From positions 1 to 34,297 of the forward strand of contig VFKM01000117.1 of the NCBI GenBank assembly GCA_009885545.1: a stretch of 34,297 bases of DNA, written 5' to 3'. This document shows positions 27-6,262 of the stretch, in pieces; within the stretch, counting starts at the first letter, position 1; each line of letters opens with the position of its first letter. The notes below the pieces were generated by a model that did no database searches, had not been told where the DNA came from, and was given only the letters and a program-made list of their open reading frames with translations. Origin of the DNA: Flavobacteriales bacterium (GTDB taxonomy: Bacteria; Bacteroidota; Bacteroidia; Flavobacteriales_D; Crocinitomicaceae). The position numbers and the translations under genes are program-made.

Positions 27-1034
27 ATGGCATTCAACAATATCGATTTAAAACCTTACAACACTTTCGGCATCTCAGTTCACGCAAAACATTTTTCTCG
101 ATTTGGAAACGTAGACGAATTAAAAAATTTACTTACAAAATTTGCAGGGGATGAGCTCTTAATATTAGGTGGAGGTAGTAATTTGTTGTTCACAGAAGAT
201 TTTGATGGTGCCGTTTTGCGCAATGAAATAAAAGGATTTGAAATTGTTGAAGAAACACCTGACTCAGCAATAGTAAAATCTGGAGCTGGTGAAGTTTGGA
301 ATGATTTTGTAAATAAATGTATCAAACATAATTTTGCTGGCATTGAAAATCTCAGTTTAATTCCAGGAAGTGTAGGTGCAAGTCCAATGCAAAATATTGG
401 TGCATATGGCGTTGAGATAAAAGATGTATTTCTTGAATTAGAGGCATTTCACATCCCTACTGGTGAAATTCACACATTCGATAATAAAGCGTGTGAATTT
501 GGCTATAGAGAAAGTGTTTTTAAAAATAAGTTGAAGGGACAATATGTAATATTATCCGTTTCATTCAAACTTTCTAAAAAACCAAACTTAAATACGAGTT
601 ATGGCGCTATTGAAAGTGAATTAATGAAAATGAGTGTTACGAAACCTACGATAAAGGATATTAGTAAGGCTGTAATTTCAATTCGTAAATCTAAATTACC
701 AGATCCAAAAGAACTGGGAAATGCTGGAAGTTTCTTTAAGAATCCAGTGGTGGATCAAAAAGTATTGGATGAAATTTTGAAAACATATCCAACGATTCCA
801 AATTTTGCTGCTGAACCAGGCAAACGTAAACTTCCAGCTGGTTGGCTAATAGAACAAGCTGGTTGGAAAGGTAAAATGTACAGCCAATATGGCGTTCATA
901 AATTACAAGCACTTGTTCTTGTGAATTATGGCAGTGCTACTGGCAAAGAGATTTATCGCTTATCTTCTCGAATTATAAAGGACATTGAAGAGAAATTTGG
1001 GGTGACTTTGGAAAGAGAAGTGAATATTCTTTAA
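27..1034 (+). CDS. murB: UDP-N-acetylmuramate dehydrogenase (MurB)
   Basis: 335 aa ORF; FAD-binding GGGSNLLF, IPGSVGASPMQNIGAYG, NAGSFFKNP and PAGWLIEQAGWKG motifs typical of MurB. Confidence 0.96.
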   Translation: MAFNNIDLKPYNTFGISVHAKHFSRFGNVDELKNLLTKFAGDELLILGGGSNLLFTEDFDGAVLRNEIKGFEIVEETPDSAIVKSGAGEVWNDFVNKCIKHNFAGIENLSLIPGSVGASPMQNIGAYGVEIKDVFLELEAFHIPTGEIHTFDNKACEFGYRESVFKNKLKGQYVILSVSFKLSKKPNLNTSYGAIESELMKMSVTKPTIKDISKAVISIRKSKLPDPKELGNAGSFFKNPVVDQKVLDEILKTYPTIPNFAAEPGKRKLPAGWLIEQAGWKGKMYSQYGVHKLQALVLVNYGSATGKEIYRLSSRIIKDIEEKFGVTLEREVNIL

Positions 1035-1038
1035 GGTA

Positions 1039-1080
1039 GTTACTAATTACTAGTTGCAAATTGCTAGTTACTAGTTACCA
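1039..1080. repeat. Degenerate heptanucleotide tandem array (6 units of about RTTRCWA)
   Basis: Phased 7-mers GTTACTA|ATTACTA|GTTGCAA|ATTGCTA|GTTACTA|GTTACCA read directly between murB and the helicase remnant. Confidence 0.75.
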
Positions 1081-1368
1081 TTCATCTTCAGTGCCATCTT
1101 CTTTATTCGATTGATCAAGGCGTTTTTTTCAATTATTACTTCCGTCATCGCTGTCGTTAAGAATGTCAAGATATTCATCTTTTGTGATAGTGTATAGTTC
1201 AATATCTTAACCAGTATAGGCTTCTATCGCTTCTAATAATTCCTTTACCGCTTCATTACAAAATGATAATGCTTGACCTCGTATTACTTTAAAATATTAT
1301 CTAAATACCCCAACTTATCGTCCATGTCGACAAATGTAAAAGCGTGATCGATATTTTTTGCAACTGGC
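1075..1368 (-). pseudogene. Decayed 3'-terminal fragment of a DEAD-box helicase gene (partial duplicate of 5039-5634)
   Basis: 1077-1282 aligns without gaps to 5041-5246 (about 15 mismatches in 206 by hand count); 1283-1368 aligns without gaps to sequence from 5542 onward (about 72% identity); 295 bp are missing between them; in-frame nonsense codons (TGG to TGA, GAA to TAA). Confidence 0.9.
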
Positions 1369-1371
1369 TTT

Positions 1372-4300
1372 TTATTTGATCAACAACTTTTTATTGAATT
1401 TCATAGTCTTCTCTTCTGTCAAGATAACTACATGATAAAATCCAGTTGATACGTTTAATTTTAGATCAAGGATCATTTCTTGCGTATTGGTTTCAAAAAC
1501 TTGCTTACCTGATAGATCAAATAATTTAATTGTCTTTTCACCATCAATTTTACCAAAATCAATCGTTAGATTTCCATCTGAAGGATTTGGATAATAATTC
1601 AATATATCTTGGTTATTTTCATTGATTCCAACACCAGATATTGTAACTGATTGAGTTATAAAGTCAGTTCCACAACCATTTGTGATCGTAAGGGTTACAG
1701 TGAATGTGCCATTTGTCAAATAAACGTAATTCGGATTTTCAACGGTTGATGTTCCACCATCACCAAAATCCCAATCCCATGTTGCAGCATCTGCAGATGT
1801 ACTTGTAAAAGTATAATCGTTAGCGATGTTTGATGATGTAAACGATGCCGTTGGTGCTCCTGGTTCAACAGATATTGCTAAAGTACTTGATACACTTGGT
1901 CCACAAACATTTTCAGCATTCACTTCAATTGTACCTGAAATTGCATTGTCTGTTACATTGATGGAATTCGTAAAACTGGTACCAGTCCAACCAACCGGTG
2001 TTGTCCAATTGTAAACTACAGTTGGATCATTTACAACAGAATATGTATTGGTTGTTAATGCACATATAGAATTTGGACCACTAATAACACTAGGTGTATT
2101 CGCTGGTGCAACAACCGTTATGTAATTTAATTTTGTTTCTGATGTTTGTGAGATGGCATCTATAACTGTTAATGTAGCATCATAAACTCCTGCCGCAGCA
2201 TATGTTACAACAGGATTTTGAAGGATTGATGTTGATGGTGTTCCTCCCGGAAATAACCACTGCCATGAAACAGGTGCAGATCCTGAAGTAATATCAGTAT
2301 AGGTTACTGGGGTATTCACACAAACTGTCAAAGGTGATGTAGAGAAGTCAGGAACCATAGTTGATGAAAGGTTATTCCATTTCCATATTCCCGCGGTCAC
2401 TGCATCTGTATTGAACCAACCTGACCAACCAACAGAAGGATTTGTAAATTCTACATACAAATGTTGTTCAGTATCAATAATATTCCAAGTTGTACCGCCA
2501 TCAGCTGAATAGGATGAACCAGAAGCACCTGCAGCAGCGCCAGTCGTGAATGCTATATTCGTTCCTTCGATAAAGCACAATCCATTTGTAAATACAGAAC
2601 CAGTCGTAACAACCGGGGCCCAAGAGGCACCACCATCCAAGGTTTTATATACGGTTCCTGAATTATTGACAATAAGACCATCTGTAGTAGAAGCATACGA
2701 AAGATTAGCTGTAACTCCTGTAGTAACGGCTCCACCAAAATCTGCAACTGGAGATGTATTTACTATCCAATTAACTCCTCGGTTTGTAGAATGGTAAACA
2801 CGTCCAAGACTAGTTGTAAACCATACATGATCTCCAACTACTTCAATTCCTCTCACATAACCAAATTCATTTGCATTTAAAGGATTTGGAATATTGGCAG
2901 CAGGCACCAATGTCCATGTTGCACCTCCATTTATAGTTGTATACATCTCAAATTCGCCACTGATAGGATCTCCTTGGCAAAAACCGATATTCGCATCCCA
3001 AAAATGTACAATATTGGCAAATGATGCCGCATTACTAAATGTTGCTGTGTTTTGTCTTGTCCATGTTGTTCCTCCATTGATGGTTATCCAAATTCCTCCA
3101 GTTTGTCCTGCAGCAGTTGGATATGCTGCTAACCATGCTTTGTTTGCATCAAAAGCATGAATCATTGAAATTCCTAAGTTTGTATTTTGAACATTAATAG
3201 TACCTGGTGTCCATGTTGCACCACCATTTATAGTCTTTGTAAATTCTTGAACATTAGCACCCGTAGCTGAGCCATCATAAGCCAAAGCCCAAACAACATT
3301 AGGGTCAACGATTGAAATATGATCAATCCCTCTATTGGCAGTTGTGAAAGCGGAAACTTCTTCGATCCATTCTCCATATGGTTGAATGGTCACATTCACA
3401 TATGCTGTTTGAGTTAACGATTGAGTACTTTGACTATTTGTTACTTGAAGAGTCACATCATATGTTCCAGCGCTTGAATATAGAATCGATGGTGGTGTCA
3501 TTCCTACAAAAGAGGATGGGCTACCTCCAGGAAATGACCATGTATAATTTGTGATTGGGTTACCACCGTCAACTGATAAATTATTAAATGTCACATTGTT
3601 TCCTTCGATAATTGAAAGCGGTGTCCCGTTGAAAAAAGGAACAGGATCGCCAGTCAAGGTACTTTCAACACATTGCAGTGCGGCCAATGCATTGATTCTC
3701 GGACCAATACTTTGACTGATGTTTACACCTGTTGAAACAATACACGTTTGAATTTGTGTTGGGGTTAATGTTGGATTAACACTTAGCATAAGTCCAACCA
3801 AACCGGCAGCGAATGGTGTAGCCATTGAAGTTCCACCCATTTGGTCATAACCATTACCTCCTGACGTATAAACTGTACTGTAAAGTCCACCAAAAGAATA
3901 GCCGCCAGGTGAAGCAATATCAACAAATGGGGTAGAACCATTATAATTTGAAAAACTTGAGCGGGAATCGTTGGCATCAACGGATCCGACACAGATCACG
4001 TTATTATATGCTCCCGGATACATAAGTGCTGTAGAATTATCATTCCCTGCAGCAGCTAAAAAAACAACTTGGGGATAAGAATTTATCAAGGTCTGCATAG
4101 CTGATGATGACGAACCGCTTCCAAAAGACATGCTCACCACATTTGCTCCATTTTGACAAGCCCATTGAACTCCTTCATATGTATACCATAGACTTCCAGA
4201 ATTTGAAGCACTATTTGGTGTTGCTTTGACGCCAATTAATTCAACATTCGCACCAAGAGATGCAATTCCAATTCCATTGTTCATATCCGCAGTAGCGAGT

Positions 4301-4938
4301 CCAGCACAATGAGTTCCATGTGACCATCCAAAATCAACACTTGATACCAAAGGGGGTGTTGCATTGTTATCATTATCTGCGACATCATATTGTGCGTATG
4401 TTGTAAGGTCTGAATGCCCACAAAAAACAGCATTATCAACTATTGCAACTTTTATATTATTACTTCCCTGACTAATATTCCATGCGTTTTCTGAACCAAC
4501 CAAAGTGTGATACCATTTGTTATTTCCTGCATGATACGTGTCATTTGGAATAAAATCGATCTTGTAGATCGGTTCTTTCTCAGCATATTCAACATTCGTA
4601 ATAGTTTTCAAACGTCTTAGTACTTCTTCGATTTGATTGTTTTCAGCAAAGGTTATTCTGAAAATATTTTCCAACTGAGATTTATGGGTAAAATAACTTG
4701 GCTTTTCTAATTTTAGCACGGTCATTCCGGATAAAGCAATTTGCAATTCAGGATATTCATTAATATTAACGATCAAACTGTAATCGTTCACATCCTTTTG
4801 CACAGCTTTGTTATAAGATATCGGATCTTGGTGTAATTTAAACATGATCGTTCCATCCAAGAAATTTGCATCATAATATTGAGAGAATCCTAAAGACGAA
4901 GAGAATAGGACGAGACAAAGTGAAAGTAGTTGTTTCAT
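1372..4938 (-). CDS. Secreted S8 (subtilisin-like) serine protease with Ycf48/BNR-like repeats, PKD domains and a T9SS C-terminal sorting domain
   Basis: 1188 aa; signal peptide MKQLLSLCLVLFSSSLGFSQ; catalytic regions AIVDNAV, HGTHCAGL, GTSMATPFAAGL; PKD-type 'WDWDFGDGGTSTVENPNYVY'; terminal 'YPNPSDGNLTIDF...KKLLIK' typical of Por secretion tails. Confidence 0.93.
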   Translation of the reverse strand: MKQLLSLCLVLFSSSLGFSQYYDANFLDGTIMFKLHQDPISYNKAVQKDVNDYSLIVNINEYPELQIALSGMTVLKLEKPSYFTHKSQLENIFRITFAENNQIEEVLRRLKTITNVEYAEKEPIYKIDFIPNDTYHAGNNKWYHTLVGSENAWNISQGSNNIKVAIVDNAVFCGHSDLTTYAQYDVADNDNNATPPLVSSVDFGWSHGTHCAGLATADMNNGIGIASLGANVELIGVKATPNSASNSGSLWYTYEGVQWACQNGANVVSMSFGSGSSSSAMQTLINSYPQVVFLAAAGNDNSTALMYPGAYNNVICVGSVDANDSRSSFSNYNGSTPFVDIASPGGYSFGGLYSTVYTSGGNGYDQMGGTSMATPFAAGLVGLMLSVNPTLTPTQIQTCIVSTGVNISQSIGPRINALAALQCVESTLTGDPVPFFNGTPLSIIEGNNVTFNNLSVDGGNPITNYTWSFPGGSPSSFVGMTPPSILYSSAGTYDVTLQVTNSQSTQSLTQTAYVNVTIQPYGEWIEEVSAFTTANRGIDHISIVDPNVVWALAYDGSATGANVQEFTKTINGGATWTPGTINVQNTNLGISMIHAFDANKAWLAAYPTAAGQTGGIWITINGGTTWTRQNTATFSNAASFANIVHFWDANIGFCQGDPISGEFEMYTTINGGATWTLVPAANIPNPLNANEFGYVRGIEVVGDHVWFTTSLGRVYHSTNRGVNWIVNTSPVADFGGAVTTGVTANLSYASTTDGLIVNNSGTVYKTLDGGASWAPVVTTGSVFTNGLCFIEGTNIAFTTGAAAGASGSSYSADGGTTWNIIDTEQHLYVEFTNPSVGWSGWFNTDAVTAGIWKWNNLSSTMVPDFSTSPLTVCVNTPVTYTDITSGSAPVSWQWLFPGGTPSTSILQNPVVTYAAAGVYDATLTVIDAISQTSETKLNYITVVAPANTPSVISGPNSICALTTNTYSVVNDPTVVYNWTTPVGWTGTSFTNSINVTDNAISGTIEVNAENVCGPSVSSTLAISVEPGAPTASFTSSNIANDYTFTSTSADAATWDWDFGDGGTSTVENPNYVYLTNGTFTVTLTITNGCGTDFITQSVTISGVGINENNQDILNYYPNPSDGNLTIDFGKIDGEKTIKLFDLSGKQVFETNTQEMILDLKLNVSTGFYHVVILTEEKTMKFNKKLLIK

Positions 4939-5038
4939 TTTTAAGTTTTTAGCAATAGATGTTCTAAAACTACGATAATTTTTTAGTTTTTTATTGACAC
5001 AATCAATAATTTATTCATTGCTAATGATAGTTTTAAAA

Positions 5039-6262
5039 TTACCATTCATCTTCAGTGCCATCTTCTTTATTCGATTGATCAAGGAGTTTTTTCCAATTAT
5101 TACTTCCGTCATCGCTGTCGTTCAGAATGTCAAGATATTCGTCTTTTGTGATAGTGTATTGTTCAATTTCTTCACCTGTGTAGGCCTCTATAGCTTCTAA
5201 TAATTCTTTTTCCGCTTCACTGCAAAATGATAATGCTTGACCTCGTTTATTTCCACGACCTGTTCTTCCGCAACGGTGAACGTAATTTTCTGCGTCGTCA
5301 GGTAAATCATAATTGATAACATAATCCATTGTTGGAATATCTATTCCACGTGCGGCAACGTCGGTTGTAATCAAAACATTGTTCTGATCTGAACGAAAAC
5401 GATCTAATATTGCAAAACGATCTTTTTGTTCAATCCCTCCATGTAAAATTTCAGCCTTTACTCCTACTCTTTCCATTGCAGCATGAACCCGCTCAACTCG
5501 CACTTTAGTTCGAGCAAAAACAATGAATTTTTTATCCTCGTATTCCTTTAAGATATTCTCTAGAAAAAATCGCTTGTCGTCCATATCTACAAAAGCTACC
5601 GCATGATCAATGTTCTTTGCAACCGGGTTTTTAGGAGATACTTGAATTCGAATGGCATTACTTACGACTTCGTATGCCAAAGACTTAATTTTCTTTGAAA
5701 TCGTAGCCGAAAAGAATAATGTTTGACGTTTTTTAGGAATGTATTTCAAGACATCCTGAATATCTTTCATGAACCCTAAATCAAGCATTAAATCCGCTTC
5801 ATCTAAAACTAAAAACTCAAGTTTCGAAATATCTAAATGGCCTTGAGAGATCAAATCGAACATTCTACCTGGTGTTGTTACAATTACATCTAATCCGTTG
5901 TTTAACGTTCTAATTTGCTGTTCTTGTTCTACGCCACCGTAAAGTCCAAATGTTTTGACAGTTGTTCTTTTTCCAATTTCATTAAAAACACCAGAAATTT
6001 GTTTTGCAAGCTCACGAGTTGGAACCATTACAATACATCGAACACCCTTGTAACCTTTGCGGTTCCTATTTTCTAATTTATCTATAATTGGAATCGCAAA
6101 TGCACCAGTTTTACCGGTACCTGTTTGAGCTACAGCCATTACATCTTCACCTTCAAGAATGTGTTTAATCGATTTAAATTGAATGTCAGTCGGCTTGTTA
6201 AAGCCCATTATTTCCAATTGTTGCTTGATTAAAGGTGAAATATGGTAATCGCTGAATTTCAT
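5039..6262 (-). CDS. DEAD/DEAH-box ATP-dependent RNA helicase (RhlE-like)
   Basis: 407 aa; AQTGTGKT, PTRELA, TPGR, LDEADLML, SAT, HRCGRTGRGNK motifs. Confidence 0.95.
   Translation of the reverse strand: MKFSDYHISPLIKQQLEIMGFNKPTDIQFKSIKHILEGEDVMAVAQTGTGKTGAFAIPIIDKLENRNRKGYKGVRCIVMVPTRELAKQISGVFNEIGKRTTVKTFGLYGGVEQEQQIRTLNNGLDVIVTTPGRMFDLISQGHLDISKLEFLVLDEADLMLDLGFMKDIQDVLKYIPKKRQTLFFSATISKKIKSLAYEVVSNAIRIQVSPKNPVAKNIDHAVAFVDMDDKRFFLENILKEYEDKKFIVFARTKVRVERVHAAMERVGVKAEILHGGIEQKDRFAILDRFRSDQNNVLITTDVAARGIDIPTMDYVINYDLPDDAENYVHRCGRTGRGNKRGQALSFCSEAEKELLEAIEAYTGEEIEQYTITKDEYLDILNDSDDGSNNWKKLLDQSNKEDGTEDEW

Follow-up and report, generated by a model that had tools for sequence, protein, structure and literature searches.

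A decayed copy of the 3′ end of a DEAD-box RNA helicase gene and the intact helicase gene itself flank a gene for a secreted protease in the 34,297-nucleotide stretch of Flavobacteriales DNA analysed here (the window). The protease gene and the duplicated helicase end probably came from one additive event, either the crossover of a circle or a template switch, as judged from the arrangement of the sequence and its comparison with relatives. The source genome is a single draft of 206 contigs that is 89% complete, the analysis was made from the assembled sequence, and the comparison set comprised 26 members of the genus, the window genome included.

The site is bordered on one side by murB (27–1034, + strand), a convergent core gene with the Pfam domains MurB_C and FAD_binding_4 and 96–97% amino acid identity to its counterparts in G005, G007, and G022. 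It still adjoins a 40-bp murB–helicase spacer of ancestral kind (1035–1074), which consists of TAGTTRC-type units and has the same type and length in G005 and G022. The − strand then carries the helicase remnant in two blocks (1075–1282 and 1277–1374), an intact T9SS-type subtilisin gene of 1188 amino acids (1372–4938), and a 5′ flank without similarity to the spacer that appears to have arrived with the protease gene (4939–5010). The spacer end recurs as TTGCTAATGATAGTTTTAAAA (5011–5038), and beyond it lies the intact helicase gene (5039–6262, − strand), whose product of 407 amino acids has the Pfam domains DEAD and Helicase_C and is 98–99% identical to those of the same three relatives. The spacer at 1035–1074 is itself a dispersed intergenic repeat, with TAGTTRC-like units that are widespread across the genus; copies of this type were seen on contigs C181, C61, and C76 of G000, the window's own genome, and about 30 matches were found in G008.

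An earlier note on this DNA had described 1077–1368 as a degraded, same-orientation copy of the helicase 3′ part on the far side of the protease gene, with direct repeats about 3964 bp apart. Alignment bore out the homology, the orientation, and the spacing, which is 3964 bp from start to start (1075 and 5039). The proximal block (1075–1282) matches 5039–5246 over 208 nt with 92.8% identity (E = 2.5e-84), the distal block (1277–1374) matches 5536–5633 over 98 nt with 74% identity (E = 5e-11), and a joint gapped alignment of remnant and helicase scored 396, whereas none of 200 shuffles exceeded 69, so that the similarity is significant. The copy is not a continuous stretch, however, since it reaches helicase position 5633 across an internal deletion of ~295 bp. 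The motif CCTCGT stands at both ends of the sequence absent from the remnant, and the two remnant blocks abut there (1277–1282). We infer that the remnant formerly spanned the terminal ~595 bp of the helicase gene, of which ~295 bp were then deleted between these short repeats. Both nonsense codons that had been noticed before, GAA to TAA and TGG to TGA, are present in the helicase frame of the proximal block. The internal deletion, together with the mosaic structure and the general hotspot nature of the interval described below, goes beyond what the earlier note contained.

A draft genome of 206 contigs at 89% completeness and a repeat with 93% identity are circumstances in which contigs of two strains could have been joined wrongly at the repeat. 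Such a chimera is extremely improbable here: the longest exact match between remnant and intact helicase is 46 bp, little for the k-mers commonly used in assembly, identities of 96–99% assign murB and the helicase gene to one lineage, and the decayed remnant itself occupies the ancestral place beside the 40-bp spacer.

Comparison of the murB–helicase interval among relatives contradicted the protease as ancestral content at this site and supported the earlier proposal that it was inserted at the helicase 3′ end. G005 and G022 are the closest relatives (98–99% amino acid identity in the helicase and 96–97% in murB). Their two genes lie 40 bp apart with no protease between, and a search at E ≤ 1e-80 found no protease anywhere in these genomes, both 99% complete. 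Most outgroups are empty as well, the convergent gap being 7–80 bp in G005, G022, G003, G008, G011, G014, G018, G019, and G024. The helicase is present in 22 of the 26 genus members, the window genome included (E ≤ 1e-100), and murB in 23 of the 26 (E ≤ 1e-50); the murB–protease–helicase insertion was found in none of the other genomes among the 26. These sequence comparisons favour insertion of the protease as the derived state. Because a crossover between the repeats would recreate the original junction precisely, an empty site in a relative might in theory have arisen by excision; with so many outgroups empty, there is no need to assume this.

The ends of the duplicated unit can be read against the ancestral spacer, which in G005 and G022 is TAA ATGAGTTGCTAATTGCTAGTTGCTAGTTTTAAAA TCA. 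On the remnant side the murB end of a spacer comparable in type and length is kept, but without TTTTAAAA. The flank of the intact helicase retains TAGTTTTAAAA, the spacer end known from G005 and G022, plus TTGCTAAT, followed by unrelated sequence, and comparison with the spacer of these two relatives places the right-hand junction of the insert at about 5010–5017. Since ~25 bp of ancestral-type spacer lie beside the intact helicase, the duplicated unit includes this part of the spacer, and the homology does not begin exactly at the helicase stop codon as previously thought. At the other junction, the protease stop codon (1372–1374) falls within TAAAAA, the first 6 bp of the distal-block homology, so that no gap separates the protease gene from the helicase fragment. 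A single duplicated segment of ~620 bp is compatible with both junctions.

We infer the following course of events. The murB and helicase genes would at the start have been convergent and ~40 bp apart. A protease segment, ~3.64 kb long if its 5′ flank is counted, would then have been added, and with it a further copy of the terminal ~595 bp of the helicase gene and of ~25 bp of spacer, either by a template switch or through Campbell-type integration of one molecule that bore the protease and the helicase end alike; circular-molecule crossover and template switching give the same product and are therefore indistinguishable by it. The helicase copy beside its own promoter would have stayed functional, and the redundant 3′ copy beside murB would have decayed, losing 295 bp between the CCTCGT repeats and gaining stop codons. 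Later gene conversion would have homogenised the 208-bp block present in both copies and halted at the deletion. The insertion is known from one genome, and the intermediate steps are without counterpart among the relatives.

As in Campbell-type single-crossover integration, a full-length gene stands on one side and a 5′-truncated copy on the other, with the cargo between them, and the duplication of the target segment is direct. Unlike in the textbook case, neither a plasmid backbone nor a circle is visible here, and the event would be old, with a truncated copy that has decayed. No donor molecule carrying both the protease and the helicase segment was found among the genomes searched, and collections contain hardly any plasmids from this family. 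The same structure would follow from microhomology-mediated, replication-based template switching, in which the protease was copied from elsewhere and the helicase re-entered upstream of the point of exit, duplicating ~620 bp without an incoming homologous molecule. The TAAAAA common to protease and remnant, boundaries that lack an integrase, an IS, and terminal inverted repeats, and the single simple origin that it offers for both junctions speak for this route, which we nevertheless regard as rather unlikely: the microhomology is only 6 bp, A/T-rich, and cheap by chance, and if the protease stemmed from the same cell, its source would since have to be lost, the genome having one copy of the protease. 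Homology-facilitated illegitimate recombination could unite the helicase homology with the microhomology junction TAAAAA, there being one such junction only here. A duplicated target 3′ end beside the cargo is also known from integrative elements that substitute this end of the gene they enter; in the present interval, however, there is no integrase, and the repeat, ~620 bp before decay, is far longer than a short att repeat, so that a site-specific element was rejected. Insertion by an IS or transposon was rejected because no inverted-repeat pair is present at 1372 and about 5012, and an integron cassette reading of the protease insert was likewise rejected.

The remnant is a mosaic, as became apparent when the polarity of its differences from the intact helicase was judged with G005, G007, and G022 as references. 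In the proximal block, 184 of the 199 nt compared are identical, and the 15 differences comprise 10 derived in the remnant, 2 derived in the intact copy, and 3 ambiguous ones; 11 bases are common to both copies and absent from all three relatives. In the distal block, by comparison, only 67 of 92 nt are identical, the 25 differences comprise 10 remnant-derived, 5 intact-derived, and 10 ambiguous ones (third positions), and a single base is common to both copies and absent from the relatives. The contrast is significant both for identity (Fisher, p = 1.6e-5) and for shared versus private bases (p = 0.01), and the boundary coincides with the CCTCGT deletion. Thus, the proximal 208 bp has the lineage's derived bases in common with the helicase and the distal block does not. 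This pattern would fit equally well with a duplication that is old and was followed by gene conversion and with derivation of the distal block from a related donor, and the history of the distal block rests on few sites (92–98 nt). In the latter case a ready-made block of protease plus helicase fragment would have been imported from a related species and gene conversion would be unneeded. This origin would suit the near absence of derived bases common to the distal block and the intact helicase, and the fact that this block matches G005 better (79%) than the helicase of its own genome (73%); still, it is doubtful, as the joining of protease and helicase fragment would only be moved back into the donor, and no genome with such an arrangement was found among the 26 of the genus. 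Under gene conversion, the proximal block would look younger than the distal one because conversion stopped at the deletion, and the insertion would be old, near the split from G005, G022, and G007, with repeats that recombined without removing the protease.

The murB–helicase interval has received different cargo in different genomes: KatG and a LysR regulator in G006, G017, and G025, a DnaJ-domain protein in G002 and G009 with a similar ORF in G010 and G023, a GNAT-like ORF in G015, and in G007 (L057, 8212–9612) a 467-amino acid protein with a secretion-type N-terminus and no Pfam or NCBIfam match. With the same core neighbours and accessory content that differs between genomes, the interval is an insertion hotspot. 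No mobility gene is present in the window interval, which holds the protease and the remnant only; integrase matches in the same genome are on other contigs. Hotspots without mobility genes have been linked to recombination at flanking core genes, which recombine above average (Oliveira et al., 2017, PMC5635113). The present site resembles these hotspots in its fixed core pair, varying cargo, absence of integrase or transposase at the site, and recombining flanking core gene; it differs in that the 3′ end of a core gene is duplicated, whereas a clean double crossover would leave no duplicate. We conclude that the protease event is an additive insertion at a core-gene hotspot. No copies of the helicase or murB gene ends were found in the occupied intervals of G002, G006, G007, G009, G010, G015, G017, G020, G023, G025, and G035, where only chance-level matches of 18–21 nt occurred. 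Self-comparison of 101 stretches (1.27 Mb) of the window's own genome gave no other gene-end direct repeats flanking an unrelated gene among the matches examined, the remaining matches resembling tandem paralogs, repeat-rich proteins, or two integron-like intergenic repeats. At L310 (G000:C186), 599–3224, small same-strand ORFs are separated by intergenic sequences of ~150–190 bp with RYYYAAC...GTTRRRY-like ends and hairpins, possibly a chromosomal integron cassette array with attC-like sites. At L259, 14447–16316, tandem 293-amino acid secreted paralogs agree completely at their C-terminal ends and diverge more in their N-terminal parts, possibly another case of gene conversion.

The protease contains Peptidase_S8, PKD domains, and a C-terminal sorting domain by Pfam and NCBIfam profiles, and a signal peptide was recognised by eye. 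Por_Secre_tail scored above the cut-off in both Pfam and NCBIfam (TIGR04183) which, with the protease domain, identifies it as T9SS type A cargo. Differences from the G024 relative amount to 60% at third and 20–27% at first and second codon positions. The intact frame, the D-H-S catalytic motifs, the sorting domain, and the codon-position pattern make the protease look functional. Relatives with 64–67% amino acid identity occur in the genus at other loci, one common to G024, G008, G004, and G016 and another found in G018 and G001 with a shared neighbour; a relative also lies elsewhere in an uncultured Fluviicola MAG. In two MAGs, relatives (57%) adjoin putative gldK–gldN, judged by size and sequence. 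In the MAG loci L133 (3908–11540) and L134 (3846–11477), the protease relative is directly downstream of putative gldL, gldM, and gldN, which belong to the T9SS core. Composition was uninformative as a sign of foreign origin, the GC3 of 0.23 being inside the neighbours' range of 0.19–0.29. Given that protease identity to the genus relatives (64–67%) is about that of murB (65–69%), transfer and relocation inside the genome are inseparable by identity, and relocation is possible.

Precise excision of the protease between the helicase repeats is likewise possible. If, as the conversion tract suggests, the copies are still recombining, part of the population might precisely lose the 3964-bp protease unit; although we consider such a reversible cassette very unlikely, it would restore the ancestral helicase–murB junction and make the secreted protease a switchable public-goods gene.

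In summary, the locus is a readable footprint of accessory secreted genes entering convergent core-gene gaps without mobility genes, and its remnant offers an internal clock in the form of decay and conversion. As a single case its effect is modest, the footprint of gene acquisition being well preserved yet ordinary. Such footprints could be counted across the Bacteroidota, which would indicate how often gene gain at hotspots is additive and how often it is clean allelic exchange.
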